Below are positions 15,562 to 19,390 of a stretch of DNA of 39,740 nucleotides, one piece after another. Source of the DNA: Candidatus Poseidonia sp. (lineage in GTDB: Archaea; Thermoplasmatota; Poseidoniia; Poseidoniales; Poseidoniaceae); the NCBI GenBank assembly GCA_030827475.1, contig JAUREJ010000014.1:1-39740 (forward strand), in the 5' to 3' direction. Below the pieces are notes generated by a model. It saw nothing but the letters and a program-made list of their open reading frames with translations. It was not told the origin of the DNA and did no database searches. The first letter of the stretch is position 1, and the number at the start of each line of letters is the position of its first letter. Made by a program: the position numbers and the translations under genes.

Positions 15562-18246
15562 TCATTCCTGTTCGAGCATGGACGGACGAGGCGGTGGCCC
15601 CATGGCGACATCTTCCTTTGGCAATGTTGGACCCACCCGCTGATTGCTGATGATAACGGCCCAGGCACCGATCACGCCCGCAGCGAGGAACAACCATCCT
15701 GCAAGGCCAAAGCCTCCGCTATCGTTCTCGCCGGAAGCACCGTCGGACTTGGTCGCACATCCCTGTTCATCCACGACCGCTCCAAAGACCGAGTTGAGGC
15801 AAAAATCGTAGGCATTGACCACGCCGTCATCGTCGTCATCGAGTTGGAACTCGCTGCAGCCGTTGGAGGAGATTTGGTCTCCGGCGGTGGTTCGAGGGCA
15901 CAGGTCAACAGGGTCCAAAACCCCGTCTTGGTCATCGTCATCGTCTTCCACGGCATCGATGCATCCGTCCCCATCCATGTCTTGTCCGGACTGCGCCACC
16001 CCGATGATGCCCTTTGGACATCGGTCCACCACGTCTTCAATGCCGTCGTTATCATCGTCGTCATCTTCGGTGCTGTCTGCGCACCCATCACCGTCGTGGT
16101 CCATGGTTTCGGCTTGGTCAATCCAATTTTTTTCGCCGAACAAGCACGTGTCGTCGACGTCCAAGACCCCGTCGTCATCATCGTCATCGTCCATCGTTTC
16201 GTCAATGCACCCGTCGGTGTCGTAGTCGTTCCAAGAGAAGGAAATCCACGGTGTCAAGTCGTTTGGACAGTTGTCGTCGGGGATTGAAATCCCGTCCCCA
16301 TCCTTGTCAACGTCACAAGGGTCCCCGATGTTGTCGTTGTCCAAATCCCCCTGGGTTGGGTTGGCGACCCCCGGACAATTGTCTGCTTGGTCGACAAAGC
16401 CGTCACCGTCGGTGTCCACATCAGCACACCCATCGGATTCAATGTCGTTTTCTTCGGTTGAAACCCAACCCACAGACCCCGTTGGGCAAAGGTCATTGGA
16501 GTCAAAAATGCCGTCCTCATCATCGTCCAAATCTTCGGTTGCATCTCGACAGCCATCACCGTCGTGGTCGGTGTTGGCGTTGGCCTGCCAGCCCACCTCA
16601 CCGAGGTTGCAATCATCGCTCGCATCGTTGACGCCGTCGTTGTCGTCATCCTCATCGCAGAGGTCGCCAAAAGCGTCTCCGTCGTGGTTTTCTTGATTGG
16701 GGTTGGGAAGCTTTGGGCAGTTGTCAACCCCGTCGAGAACGCCGTCCAAATCCAAATCGGTTTCGTACATCCACACGCCGATATCAACTTGGTCTCGTTG
16801 GTCAAACACATGGGGTCCGTACATGCCGTCGTTGTTGGAGGCGAAAGCAACAACCGGGGACCCGCTGGCCGTGAGCGCCAAGTCGGAAGGTCGGTCGTTC
16901 CCGCCTCCGCCGCCTGAAATCGCCCAATCCCAGGCGCCATTTTCTTGGCGTTGGGCCAAGAACAGGTCGAGATGATTTCCGTTGTTCAAACCGTCAAGGT
17001 CGGTCAGGGTGAATTCACCGAGCGTGAGTGCCCCGCTTGTTTCACCGAGGATGATGGAATCGCCTTGTGAGGTGATTTCGATGCCGACGACTCGGTCAGC
17101 TCCGTTTCCGCCAAAGCCGGATGCGTGCAACCATTCCCCGTTCGTTGAAAGGTGGGCCTCATAGAAGTCAATCCAGACGGCGTCATCGATGTCCATGTCT
17201 CCAAAACTCATGTTCTCCATGTAATCTCCAACGATGGCGATGCCGTTGGACGCTCGTCCGGTGCAGTCAGCGACGGTGTTGTCACCGGACCCTCCGGCGT
17301 GAGCGATCCAATTCCAACCTCCGGTGGAGTACTGGGCAACCGCAATGTCCAAATTCCCCGTACTGAGGATTTCCGTTTCGTCAAAATTCACCATGTCAAA
17401 GAACGTGGTGATGAAATACGTCCCTCCATTGCTGTCTTTGCAAAGTTTCCCGGTGGTATCAAGCGCATTTGTCGAGAACACGGTTTTGACCGCCAAGTGG
17501 TCGCCGTACCCGTTCATCATCACCAGGGCAACGGCTTCTTCGTTTTCGCTGGCTAGCGAGGTTTCGTTTTCGAAGAGCAACTCGCCGCGATGAAGCAGTG
17601 CGAGATGGATTTCGTCGTTTTGCGTAACCAGCAGGTCGACGACGCTGATTTTGTGAGCATTGGAGTACGATTTTGCCCACATCCAATCGCCTTCGGGCGT
17701 CATCGCTGCGAGGAACACGGCGTTTTCGTGTTCGTCAACCGTCTTGCTGATGGGGTCGAGTTCACCGAGCGTCATGTTGCATCCGCTGCCGAAGGTCATG
17801 TCGCAGTATGTTCCGGCGACAAGGACGGTGCCGTCGCTGAGCGCAGCCAAGGCGCTGATGCTATCCAGTCCGGAGTCCAAACCCGAATTACTGCTTCCAT
17901 TGGTCGTGTTCGTCCATGTTCCGTTGGCGGCGATCCATCCGATGAAAAAGTCAACACCAAACGCTGTACCTTCGGTTGAAAAGCCGATGACATCGCCGTT
18001 GAAATCGATGTTTTGTTCAAACGAACCGGCAACGATGACGCCACCATTGGGCAGGGGCAGGAGGGCGTTGATGGATTCACTCGAACTGCCTCCTGCGCTG
18101 GCCAACCACCCCGTCGTGTTTGTCGATTCGCTGTGCAACGCAAATGCTGGGCTTTCAAGTGCCTGGGGGGCGGAATTTGCGAGCGGTGTTGCTGCACCCG
18201 CCAACATGAGCACAGCAAGAACGGCATGCACGAGTATGAAGCGCAT
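15562..18246 (-). CDS. Surface protein with beta-propeller-like repeats, thrombospondin type 3 repeats and C-terminal anchor
   Basis: This 894-residue protein starts at MRFILVHAVLAVLMLAG (ATG at 18246), a typical signal peptide; longer in-frame starts at 18318 and 18345 would bury it. Residues about 35-490 hold SBBP/beta-propeller-like repeats (recurrent GDGTVLVAGTY, GGSGDN, GNGADRV-type turns). Residues about 495-835 hold classical thrombospondin type 3 repeats (DGDGCxD, DNCP, DDDDDDDGVLD), very rich in Asp and expected to bind calcium. A transmembrane helix (about 845-866) precedes a 28-residue tail ending PPPRPSMLEQE. It is probably exported and membrane-anchored; the ligand is unknown. 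It is separate in sequence from the other repeat protein in this window. Confidence 0.88.
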   Translation of the reverse strand: MRFILVHAVLAVLMLAGAATPLANSAPQALESPAFALHSESTNTTGWLASAGGSSSESINALLPLPNGGVIVAGSFEQNIDFNGDVIGFSTEGTAFGVDFFIGWIAANGTWTNTTNGSSNSGLDSGLDSISALAALSDGTVLVAGTYCDMTFGSGCNMTLGELDPISKTVDEHENAVFLAAMTPEGDWMWAKSYSNAHKISVVDLLVTQNDEIHLALLHRGELLFENETSLASENEEAVALVMMNGYGDHLAVKTVFSTNALDTTGKLCKDSNGGTYFITTFFDMVNFDETEILSTGNLDIAVAQYSTGGWNWIAHAGGSGDNTVADCTGRASNGIAIVGDYMENMSFGDMDIDDAVWIDFYEAHLSTNGEWLHASGFGGNGADRVVGIEITSQGDSIILGETSGALTLGEFTLTDLDGLNNGNHLDLFLAQRQENGAWDWAISGGGGGNDRPSDLALTASGSPVVAFASNNDGMYGPHVFDQRDQVDIGVWMYETDLDLDGVLDGVDNCPKLPNPNQENHDGDAFGDLCDEDDDNDGVNDASDDCNLGEVGWQANANTDHDGDGCRDATEDLDDDEDGIFDSNDLCPTGSVGWVSTEENDIESDGCADVDTDGDGFVDQADNCPGVANPTQGDLDNDNIGDPCDVDKDGDGISIPDDNCPNDLTPWISFSWNDYDTDGCIDETMDDDDDDDGVLDVDDTCLFGEKNWIDQAETMDHDGDGCADSTEDDDDDNDGIEDVVDRCPKGIIGVAQSGQDMDGDGCIDAVEDDDDDQDGVLDPVDLCPRTTAGDQISSNGCSEFQLDDDDDGVVNAYDFCLNSVFGAVVDEQGCATKSDGASGENDSGGFGLAGWLFLAAGVIGAWAVIISNQRVGPTLPKEDVAMGPPPRPSMLEQE
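15790..16770 (-). repeat. Thrombospondin type 3 repeat array (coding)
   Basis: On the minus strand this stretch encodes repeated units with DxDxDG and DxCP motifs and long Asp runs interrupted by Gly-Val/Ile turns. On the plus strand it appears as repeated TCATCGTC-type tracts. Copies differ enough that recombination-mediated collapse is not obvious, but assemblies of such regions deserve a check. Confidence 0.8.
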
Positions 18247-18264
18247 GATGCTGGATGGATGTCT

Positions 18265-18273
18265 TGCATAAGA
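18265..18273 (-). promoter_or_regulatory. TATA-like box of thrombospondin-repeat gene
   Basis: Read on the minus strand, CTTATGCAA is centred about 23 bases before the ATG at 18246, again the spacing of a leaderless transcript. The box is weak; the spacing and the lack of a Shine-Dalgarno sequence are the support. Confidence 0.35.
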
Positions 18274-18343
18274 ACCCCCCGTGCAGGCGTGCGCAACGGG
18301 ATTTGGGGGAGTCTTCATTGAGTGTCGCTCCACCAACGATACC

Positions 18344-19390
18344 ATGGGTGGGTCGGACGAACGCAGGGGTCGCCAGCAGCGACGAACCTCTTCATCTTCG
18401 AACCGACGGCGCTACGGTGGTCCAAAACGCGTGCAGCAAGAGGAACGGTTTCGTGAAGAGGTTCGAGCCATGGGTGCTCGGGCAGAGGGTCGGTTTGACC
18501 AGCGACCGCTCCCCATGGCCATTCCTGAAGACATTGAACCTCCTCGAACGTTCCACCTTGAGTGGGCGGTCAGCCCCGTCCCGCTCAAGACCGAGGAAAA
18601 GGTGGCGGATTGGGTCGTCCGGCGAGGTGAATACGGATGGTTGACCGATGAGCGAGTCGACGAAATTGGAAAAAGAGTCGTCAATGAAGCCATGACCCTT
18701 GACCAGGCCTTGTCGTTGCGGTCGGCTCTGTTGCAGCAAAAGACCGTTTATTCCCACCACAAACTGAAGCGAAAGGCTCGCTCGATCGCCCAACAATACC
18801 GAAACGGCTCAACGGTGATCGAACTTTCCATCGAACACGACTTTTCCCCGATGAACCTGTTTCGTGCGGTGCTCGAGGCGAACGGCTGGTCCAAGAATCA
18901 AATCAAGGAACGACTCCGCAATCCAAGCCAGATGAAAGAACGAGAACGTCGTGAATTTGAGGAAGCTGAAGCGGTGGATCGCGTGGCAAGCGTTGACCAA
19001 TCGGAGACCCAACTCAAAGCCGATTTGTTCGAAGATATCCTCGCCGACTGGTTTGAGGCTCAAGGCATTCGTCTTCGACGTCAACCTGAGATGGTGAAGG
19101 AGCAATCCGAAGCGTTAGGGCGGCCGGTTCGTACACCGGACTTGTTGTTCCTCGATCACGTGTACATCAACGGCCAGCCGGTGGCATGGATCGATGCGAA
19201 GCATTTCTACGGCGCCGATGTGGAGTTCCAACGCAAGAAAATGAAGAAACAGATGAACCGCTACATCGACGCTTGGGGTTCAGGGGCCATCATGTTCCGT
19301 CACGGTTTCTGCGAAAATCTGTACTTGCCCGGGGTGGTCATGTTGGATGCTGGACCCATCGATCTCTCCCGCCTCAATGCTGACGAGTAG
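18344..19390 (+). CDS. CDIN1/C15orf41-like TPD-motif nuclease homologue
   Basis: This 348-residue protein has an Arg/Ser-rich N-terminus, a helical central region (about 85-215) with HTH-like segments, and a C-terminal PD-(D/E)xK-like domain. T264-P265-D266 (GRPVRTPDLLFLD) gives the family name 'TPD'. It is followed by D284-x-K286 in AWIDAKHFYG and a conserved QMNRYIDAWGSGAIMFRHGF tail. The same motif order occurs in human CDIN1 (C15orf41), linked to congenital dyserythropoietic anaemia type I, and in archaeal relatives of Holliday-junction-resolvase-fold nucleases. A DNA or RNA nuclease is expected; the substrate is unknown. The start is the ATG at 18344; the reading frame runs 63 bases further upstream. 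The last 17 bases overlap the pantoate kinase gene. Confidence 0.78.
   Translation: MGGSDERRGRQQRRTSSSSNRRRYGGPKRVQQEERFREEVRAMGARAEGRFDQRPLPMAIPEDIEPPRTFHLEWAVSPVPLKTEEKVADWVVRRGEYGWLTDERVDEIGKRVVNEAMTLDQALSLRSALLQQKTVYSHHKLKRKARSIAQQYRNGSTVIELSIEHDFSPMNLFRAVLEANGWSKNQIKERLRNPSQMKERERREFEEAEAVDRVASVDQSETQLKADLFEDILADWFEAQGIRLRRQPEMVKEQSEALGRPVRTPDLLFLDHVYINGQPVAWIDAKHFYGADVEFQRKKMKKQMNRYIDAWGSGAIMFRHGFCENLYLPGVVMLDAGPIDLSRLNADE

Follow-up and report, generated by a model that had tools for sequence, protein, structure and literature searches.

Mutation of the human gene CDIN1 (also C15orf41) leads to congenital dyserythropoietic anaemia type I. Its product, a protein of 281 amino acids (PMC6077826), is described as consisting of two N-terminal helix-turn-helix (HTH) domains and a PD-(D/E)XK nuclease domain (PMC7261414). 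The gene studied here lies in a stretch of archaeal DNA of 39,740 nucleotides (hereafter, the window), and a preliminary description, based on the letters of the DNA, had taken its product for an archaeal homologue of CDIN1. This assignment was borne out. The existence of such a homologue is not a novelty, as euryarchaeal members of the C15orf41/CDIN1 family are already in print (PMC7092493). What our analysis adds is an active-site variant that is fixed in the Poseidoniales, evidence against two functional readings of the family, and a weak hint that its role may overlap with that of Hef.

The open reading frame (18344-19390, forward strand) begins with an ATG at 18344, has a stop codon ending at 19390, and encodes 348 amino acids, compared to the 281 of human CDIN1. 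Residues 199-329 match the Pfam TPD family (PF14811), in which human CDIN1 is also found, with 69.5 bits (E=3.3e-19, cut-off 27), and the family signature of T-P-D followed by (D/E)-x-K is present as T264-P265-D266 (codons at 19133..19141) and D284-A285-K286 (19193..19201), in agreement with the positions given for TPD, D284 and K286 in the preliminary description. No NCBIfam profile matches the protein, a search of PDB sequences returned no related solved protein, and the Pfam profiles for Hjc (PF01870) and XPF/Hef (PF02732) gave no match at E<=1. Among the best 80 of 169 relatives found on genome contigs, identity ranges between 58 and 95%, and because the nearest named ones (at most 95% identical) are MAGs of Poseidonia (Marine Group II), we take this to be the source lineage of the window. 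No TPD relatives were found in viral contigs by three scans, nor in phages by tblastn, and no title on Poseidoniales TPD proteins was among the matches listed in our literature search.

For the family alignment, 170 loci were collected and 10 were left out as identical; the alignment holds 161 distinct sequences, 100 from Poseidoniales (the window included) and 61 from other Thermoplasmatota. E230, T264, P265, D266, W282, K286, Q303, Y307, G312 and G314 are identical in 161/161, which is what would be expected for an active site under selection, and the motif residues are indeed conserved across the family. Three positions, in contrast, separate the two groups: residue 284 is D in 100/100 Poseidoniales, whereas 60 of the 61 other sequences have E and one has D, residue 285 is A in 100/100 as opposed to S in 59/61 and C in 2/61, and residue 319 is R in 100/100 where the others have W (60/61) or I (1/61). 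The carboxy-terminal segment formed by residues 303-322, QMNRYIDAWGSGAIMFRHGF, had been considered typical of the family; this holds for Q303, Y307, G312, G314 and, in most sequences, G321, the only positions of this end that the whole family has in common, but not for the (F/Y)RHG motif, which is specific to Poseidoniales and is YW-x-G in nearly all other members. In a tree of 83 of the distinct sequences, the Poseidoniales form a single clade (support 100/100) on a very long stem of 2.66 changes per column. Based on this stem, on the residue counts, and on the Pfam TPD scores (126-168 bits for the other Thermoplasmatota members versus approximately 67-82 for Poseidoniales among the matches listed), these proteins make up a strongly diverged branch, with PD...DxK where nearly all others carry PD...ExK. 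The gene product is a genuine, strongly diverged, lineage-specific member of the TPD/CDIN1 family.

Because three substitutions, D for E at the third acid, A for S, and R for W, are found in 100/100 Poseidoniales sequences, and the stem of the clade is so long, it could be argued that catalysis was lost in this lineage and that the protein now works as a DNA-binding or scaffold protein. We consider such a loss quite improbable, however, as E230, D266 and K286 are still invariant. Aspartate is, in fact, an accepted third acid of the PD-(D/E)xK superfamily motif, and pseudo-enzymes usually lose the lysine or the aspartate of the PD pair. Judging from the alignment, the nuclease active site of the Poseidoniales TPD proteins is apparently intact, with a slightly altered make-up.

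The AlphaFold2 model of the protein, built with 60 Poseidoniales sequences (pLDDT 89.6, pTM 0.84), is helical in its N-half and, together with VIA-align, supports a PD-(D/E)xK-like core at the C-terminus (residues 219-348, 18998..19387). Structure prediction had been proposed as a check in the preliminary description, and neither a missing core nor a missing family match was encountered. As in the superfamily layout, E230 is carried by the first core helix (219-239), the PD pair precedes the strand 267-269, and D-A-K lies on the strand 282-286 with D284 and K286; the core is completed by strand 272-275, helix 294-311, and strands 314-318 and 331-335. Most among the 50 VIA-align matches listed are PD-(D/E)xK nucleases, with Z up to 6.1, values that are middling for this tool. 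Such matches include 1y88, which we take to be a nuclease of this class (Z 6.1, 3.3 A, 101 aligned residues), BsaWI (Z 5.8), Vsr (Z 5.0), NucS (2vld, Z 5.0), Hjc (2wj0, Z 4.1) and XPF (2bgw, Z 3.7). Foldseek against the PDB gave no match at E<=0.001 for the whole model, and nothing better than weak matches for either this model or the N-terminal domain alone. Upstream of the core, an Arg/Ser-rich N-terminal extension (18344..18490; residues 1-19 with pLDDT <50) is missing in most members outside Poseidoniales according to the alignment, and is followed by a helical domain (residues 50-216, 18491..18991) that reaches a pLDDT of 87.2 when modelled alone. The best VIA-align matches of this domain include homeodomains, with middling Z values of 5.6 to 3.5, the highest being for residues 73-142, which are weakly homeodomain-like (5zjs, Z 5.6, 3.7 A, 66 aligned residues, again middling), and residues 144-192 resemble the Pfam profile HTH_Tnp_1 below its cut-off (E=0.024). 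The domain might possibly contain a helix-turn-helix, and the resulting arrangement of HTH and PD-(D/E)xK domains would be that of human CDIN1, likened here by its description.

Profile searches found TPD in 158 of 292 Thermoplasmatota genomes, including 78/81 from the two Poseidoniales families (39/42 in f1 and 39/39 in f2), where TPD is a near-universal, single-copy core gene. It is also present in every genome of families f17 (26/26), f6 (13/13) and f30 (8/8), and was not found in f27 (0/28) or f16 (0/45); among 14 control genomes, only Methanosarcina acetivorans matches TPD. A single genome of the 158, G279, carries two copies (L121 and L122). In Poseidoniales, a convergent GHMP-kinase gene adjoins TPD in 79 of 82 loci, the two genes lying -10 to 93 bases apart, and the order leuS, thrombospondin-repeat surface protein, TPD, GHMP kinase, rpoD, rps11 can be seen in full in 40. 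In the window, the surface protein is a large thrombospondin type 3 repeat protein (15562-18345, reverse strand), the listed start of which overlaps the TPD start on the opposite strand. About 34 residues from that listed start, the protein has a stretch resembling a signal peptide, which suggests a true start further in.

No neighbours are kept across families, with the exception of a RecB/Cas4-like gene in families tentatively named Methanomassiliicoccales-like, identified through a Pfam scan of ten chosen genes next to TPD. This PDDEXK_1 gene lies directly 3' of TPD in 12 of 13 sampled genomes of four families (f30 8/8, f38 1/1, f37 2/3, f42 1/1; for instance L113:7184-8218, reverse strand, with counterparts in L114, L115 and L116), while its homologues elsewhere, including one in the genome of the window, are apart from TPD. 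Gene context also bears on a possible function of TPD as a nuclease that processes RNA, a role suggested for CDIN1-Codanin-1 on account of the likeness of Codanin-1 to CNOT1. The place of the Poseidoniales gene between leuS and the rpoD-rps11 cluster would be in line with a role of this kind, but archaeal neighbours do not recur outside the lineage, the GHMP-kinase neighbour is convergent, and the sole conserved co-oriented partner is the RecB/Cas4-like gene, which encodes a class of nucleases acting on DNA. The resemblance of Codanin-1 to CNOT1 and RNA roles have been put forward in the literature (PMC7092493, PMC11911400); the human complex, however, was reported to show no activity towards RNA, whether linear or stem-loop (PMC7261414), and we regard RNA processing as an unlikely function for the archaeal proteins.

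A likeness between human CDIN1 and archaeal Hjc has been noted (PMC7261414), which raises the question of whether TPD could be an alternative Holliday-junction resolvase that took the place of Hjc. According to a review, Hjc is present in all archaea (PMC7776575). In our searches it was present in 244 of 292 Thermoplasmatota genomes and was not found by Pfam, NCBIfam or a lineage profile in families f3, f30, f37 and f38, which at the profile level would contradict that statement; TPD is present in 17 of the 18 genomes of these families. What speaks against replacement is the distribution of another resolvase, as RusA is found in 18/18 of these genomes and in none of the 25 Hjc-bearing ones tested (0/4 and 0/21), and is for this reason the evident substitute for Hjc, so that TPD is not needed to explain the loss. 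TPD and Hjc, moreover, do not exclude each other among the 292 genomes (both 131, TPD only 27, Hjc only 113, neither 21; odds 0.90, p=0.75), given that 131 of 158 TPD genomes also carry Hjc. The idea of TPD as a stand-in for Hjc is hence largely refuted, and we consider it very unlikely. RusA was also found in 14 of the other 30 Hjc-less genomes (32/48 overall), and seemingly sits in the place of Hjc in several Thermoplasmatota lineages (G003, G062, G083, G087, G168, G174, G177, G213 and others), and RuvC was not found in any of the 22 genomes searched.

A link to chromatin, modelled on the CDIN1-Codanin-1-ASF1 connection, was also evaluated, as Codanin-1, the human partner, is reported to bind ASF1 (PMC11911400). 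A histone-fold match over the cut-off was seen in just 4 of 60 chosen genomes, 3/32 with TPD and 1/28 without, and a histone-related role was rejected for Thermoplasmatota, where it appears extremely improbable.

Following Hjc and histones, ERCC4/Hef was the third candidate partner family to be compared with TPD, first in 60 chosen genomes and then in all 292, and any association between the two is post hoc. Both genes occur in 65 genomes, TPD only in 93, Hef only in 94, and neither in 40, a tendency to mutual exclusion with p=7e-7 by genome, kinship not being corrected for, and p=0.049 by family majority (13/10/18/3), a value just below the usual threshold. TPD is, in other words, weakly complementary to Hef/XPF. 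Neither TPD nor Hef is present in any of the 28 genomes of family f27, which speaks against complementarity; TPD, Hjc and Hef are all missing in four genomes, each at most 87% complete, and are all present as separate genes in the genome of the window, where no replacement is apparent. Hef and Hjc are reported to be jointly essential in Haloferax (PMC3905845).

Taken together, our best reading is that TPD is a putative structure-selective DNA nuclease of genome maintenance. The explanation that best joins the evidence, and which we hold to be somewhat better than an even bet, is that the Poseidoniales protein represents a divergent form of TPD/CDIN1 and a putative metal-dependent nuclease acting on branched or flapped DNA, in overlap with Hef. 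The protein would be a metal-dependent PD-(D/E)xK enzyme with E230, D266, D284 and K286 in its active site, and its basic N-terminal tail and helical domain would bind nucleic acid. With less certainty, the substrate might be branched or flapped DNA encountered in replication or repair, and the protein might have a task in common with XPF/Hef, and not with Hjc or RusA, which resolve Holliday junctions. Evidence against a nuclease reading comes from the human protein, as CDIN1 with a Codanin-1 fragment was reported inactive on flaps, forks, Holliday junctions and RNA, and the same source mentions an earlier report of no nuclease activity for CDIN1 alone (PMC7261414); a 2026 paper states that no CDIN1 nuclease activity had been published (PMC13370696). 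A broader scenario, which we offer as a doubtful conjecture, sees the Poseidoniales TPD as a re-tooled subfamily (D-A-K active site, R-H-G end, basic tail) and a core-gene nuclease that processes forks or flaps, with archaeal TPDs in general overlapping Hef/XPF and with branched-DNA cutting, not histone handling, as the ancestral job of CDIN1. We know of no Codanin-1 in archaea, and any nuclease role of the family would therefore be older than the Codanin-1/ASF1 connection.

In spite of having been called compact, the window protein exceeds in length both human CDIN1 and the majority of the other archaeal members, which typically have 252-296 amino acids. The suggestion that it would be a tractable model did not hold up either, as MAGs and single cells are the only sources for its lineage in our data, its branch is very long, and E-S-K and the W at 319 are replaced in it by D-A-K and R. 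The canonical archaeal TPDs of other Thermoplasmatota have the invariant E, T-P-D, W, K, Q, Y and G-x-G in common with Poseidoniales, but show E-S-K and YW-x-G in nearly all cases, lack the basic N-terminal extension, and reach the higher Pfam scores given above; that of Methanosarcina acetivorans, known here from its profile match alone, is grouped with them. These canonical members, rather than the window protein, are the best laboratory models. Since archaea keep the motif residues of the family, apparently without the human partner, they provide a route to its ancestral biochemical activity, for which the guesses are now narrowed: TPD is not a substitute for Hjc and is not histone-linked in Thermoplasmatota, possibly overlaps Hef, and in some lineages has the gene of a RecB/Cas4-like nuclease next to its own. 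Giant viruses also have TPD proteins, those of Powai lake megavirus and Acanthamoeba polyphaga mimivirus (named CDAN1-interacting nuclease 1), which match the window model at the fold level in BFVD (E=1.6e-13 and 1.7e-9, 17-20% identity). A viral protein of 303 amino acids in the same database, A0A8F8SNR0, gave a near full-length fold match (E=1.7e-24, 28% identity) that beats those of the megaviruses. Archaeal Hjc and XPF/Hef, finally, have solved members that align to the TPD core, but their Pfam profiles do not match the window protein at E<=1, and the genome of the window encodes each of them separately.
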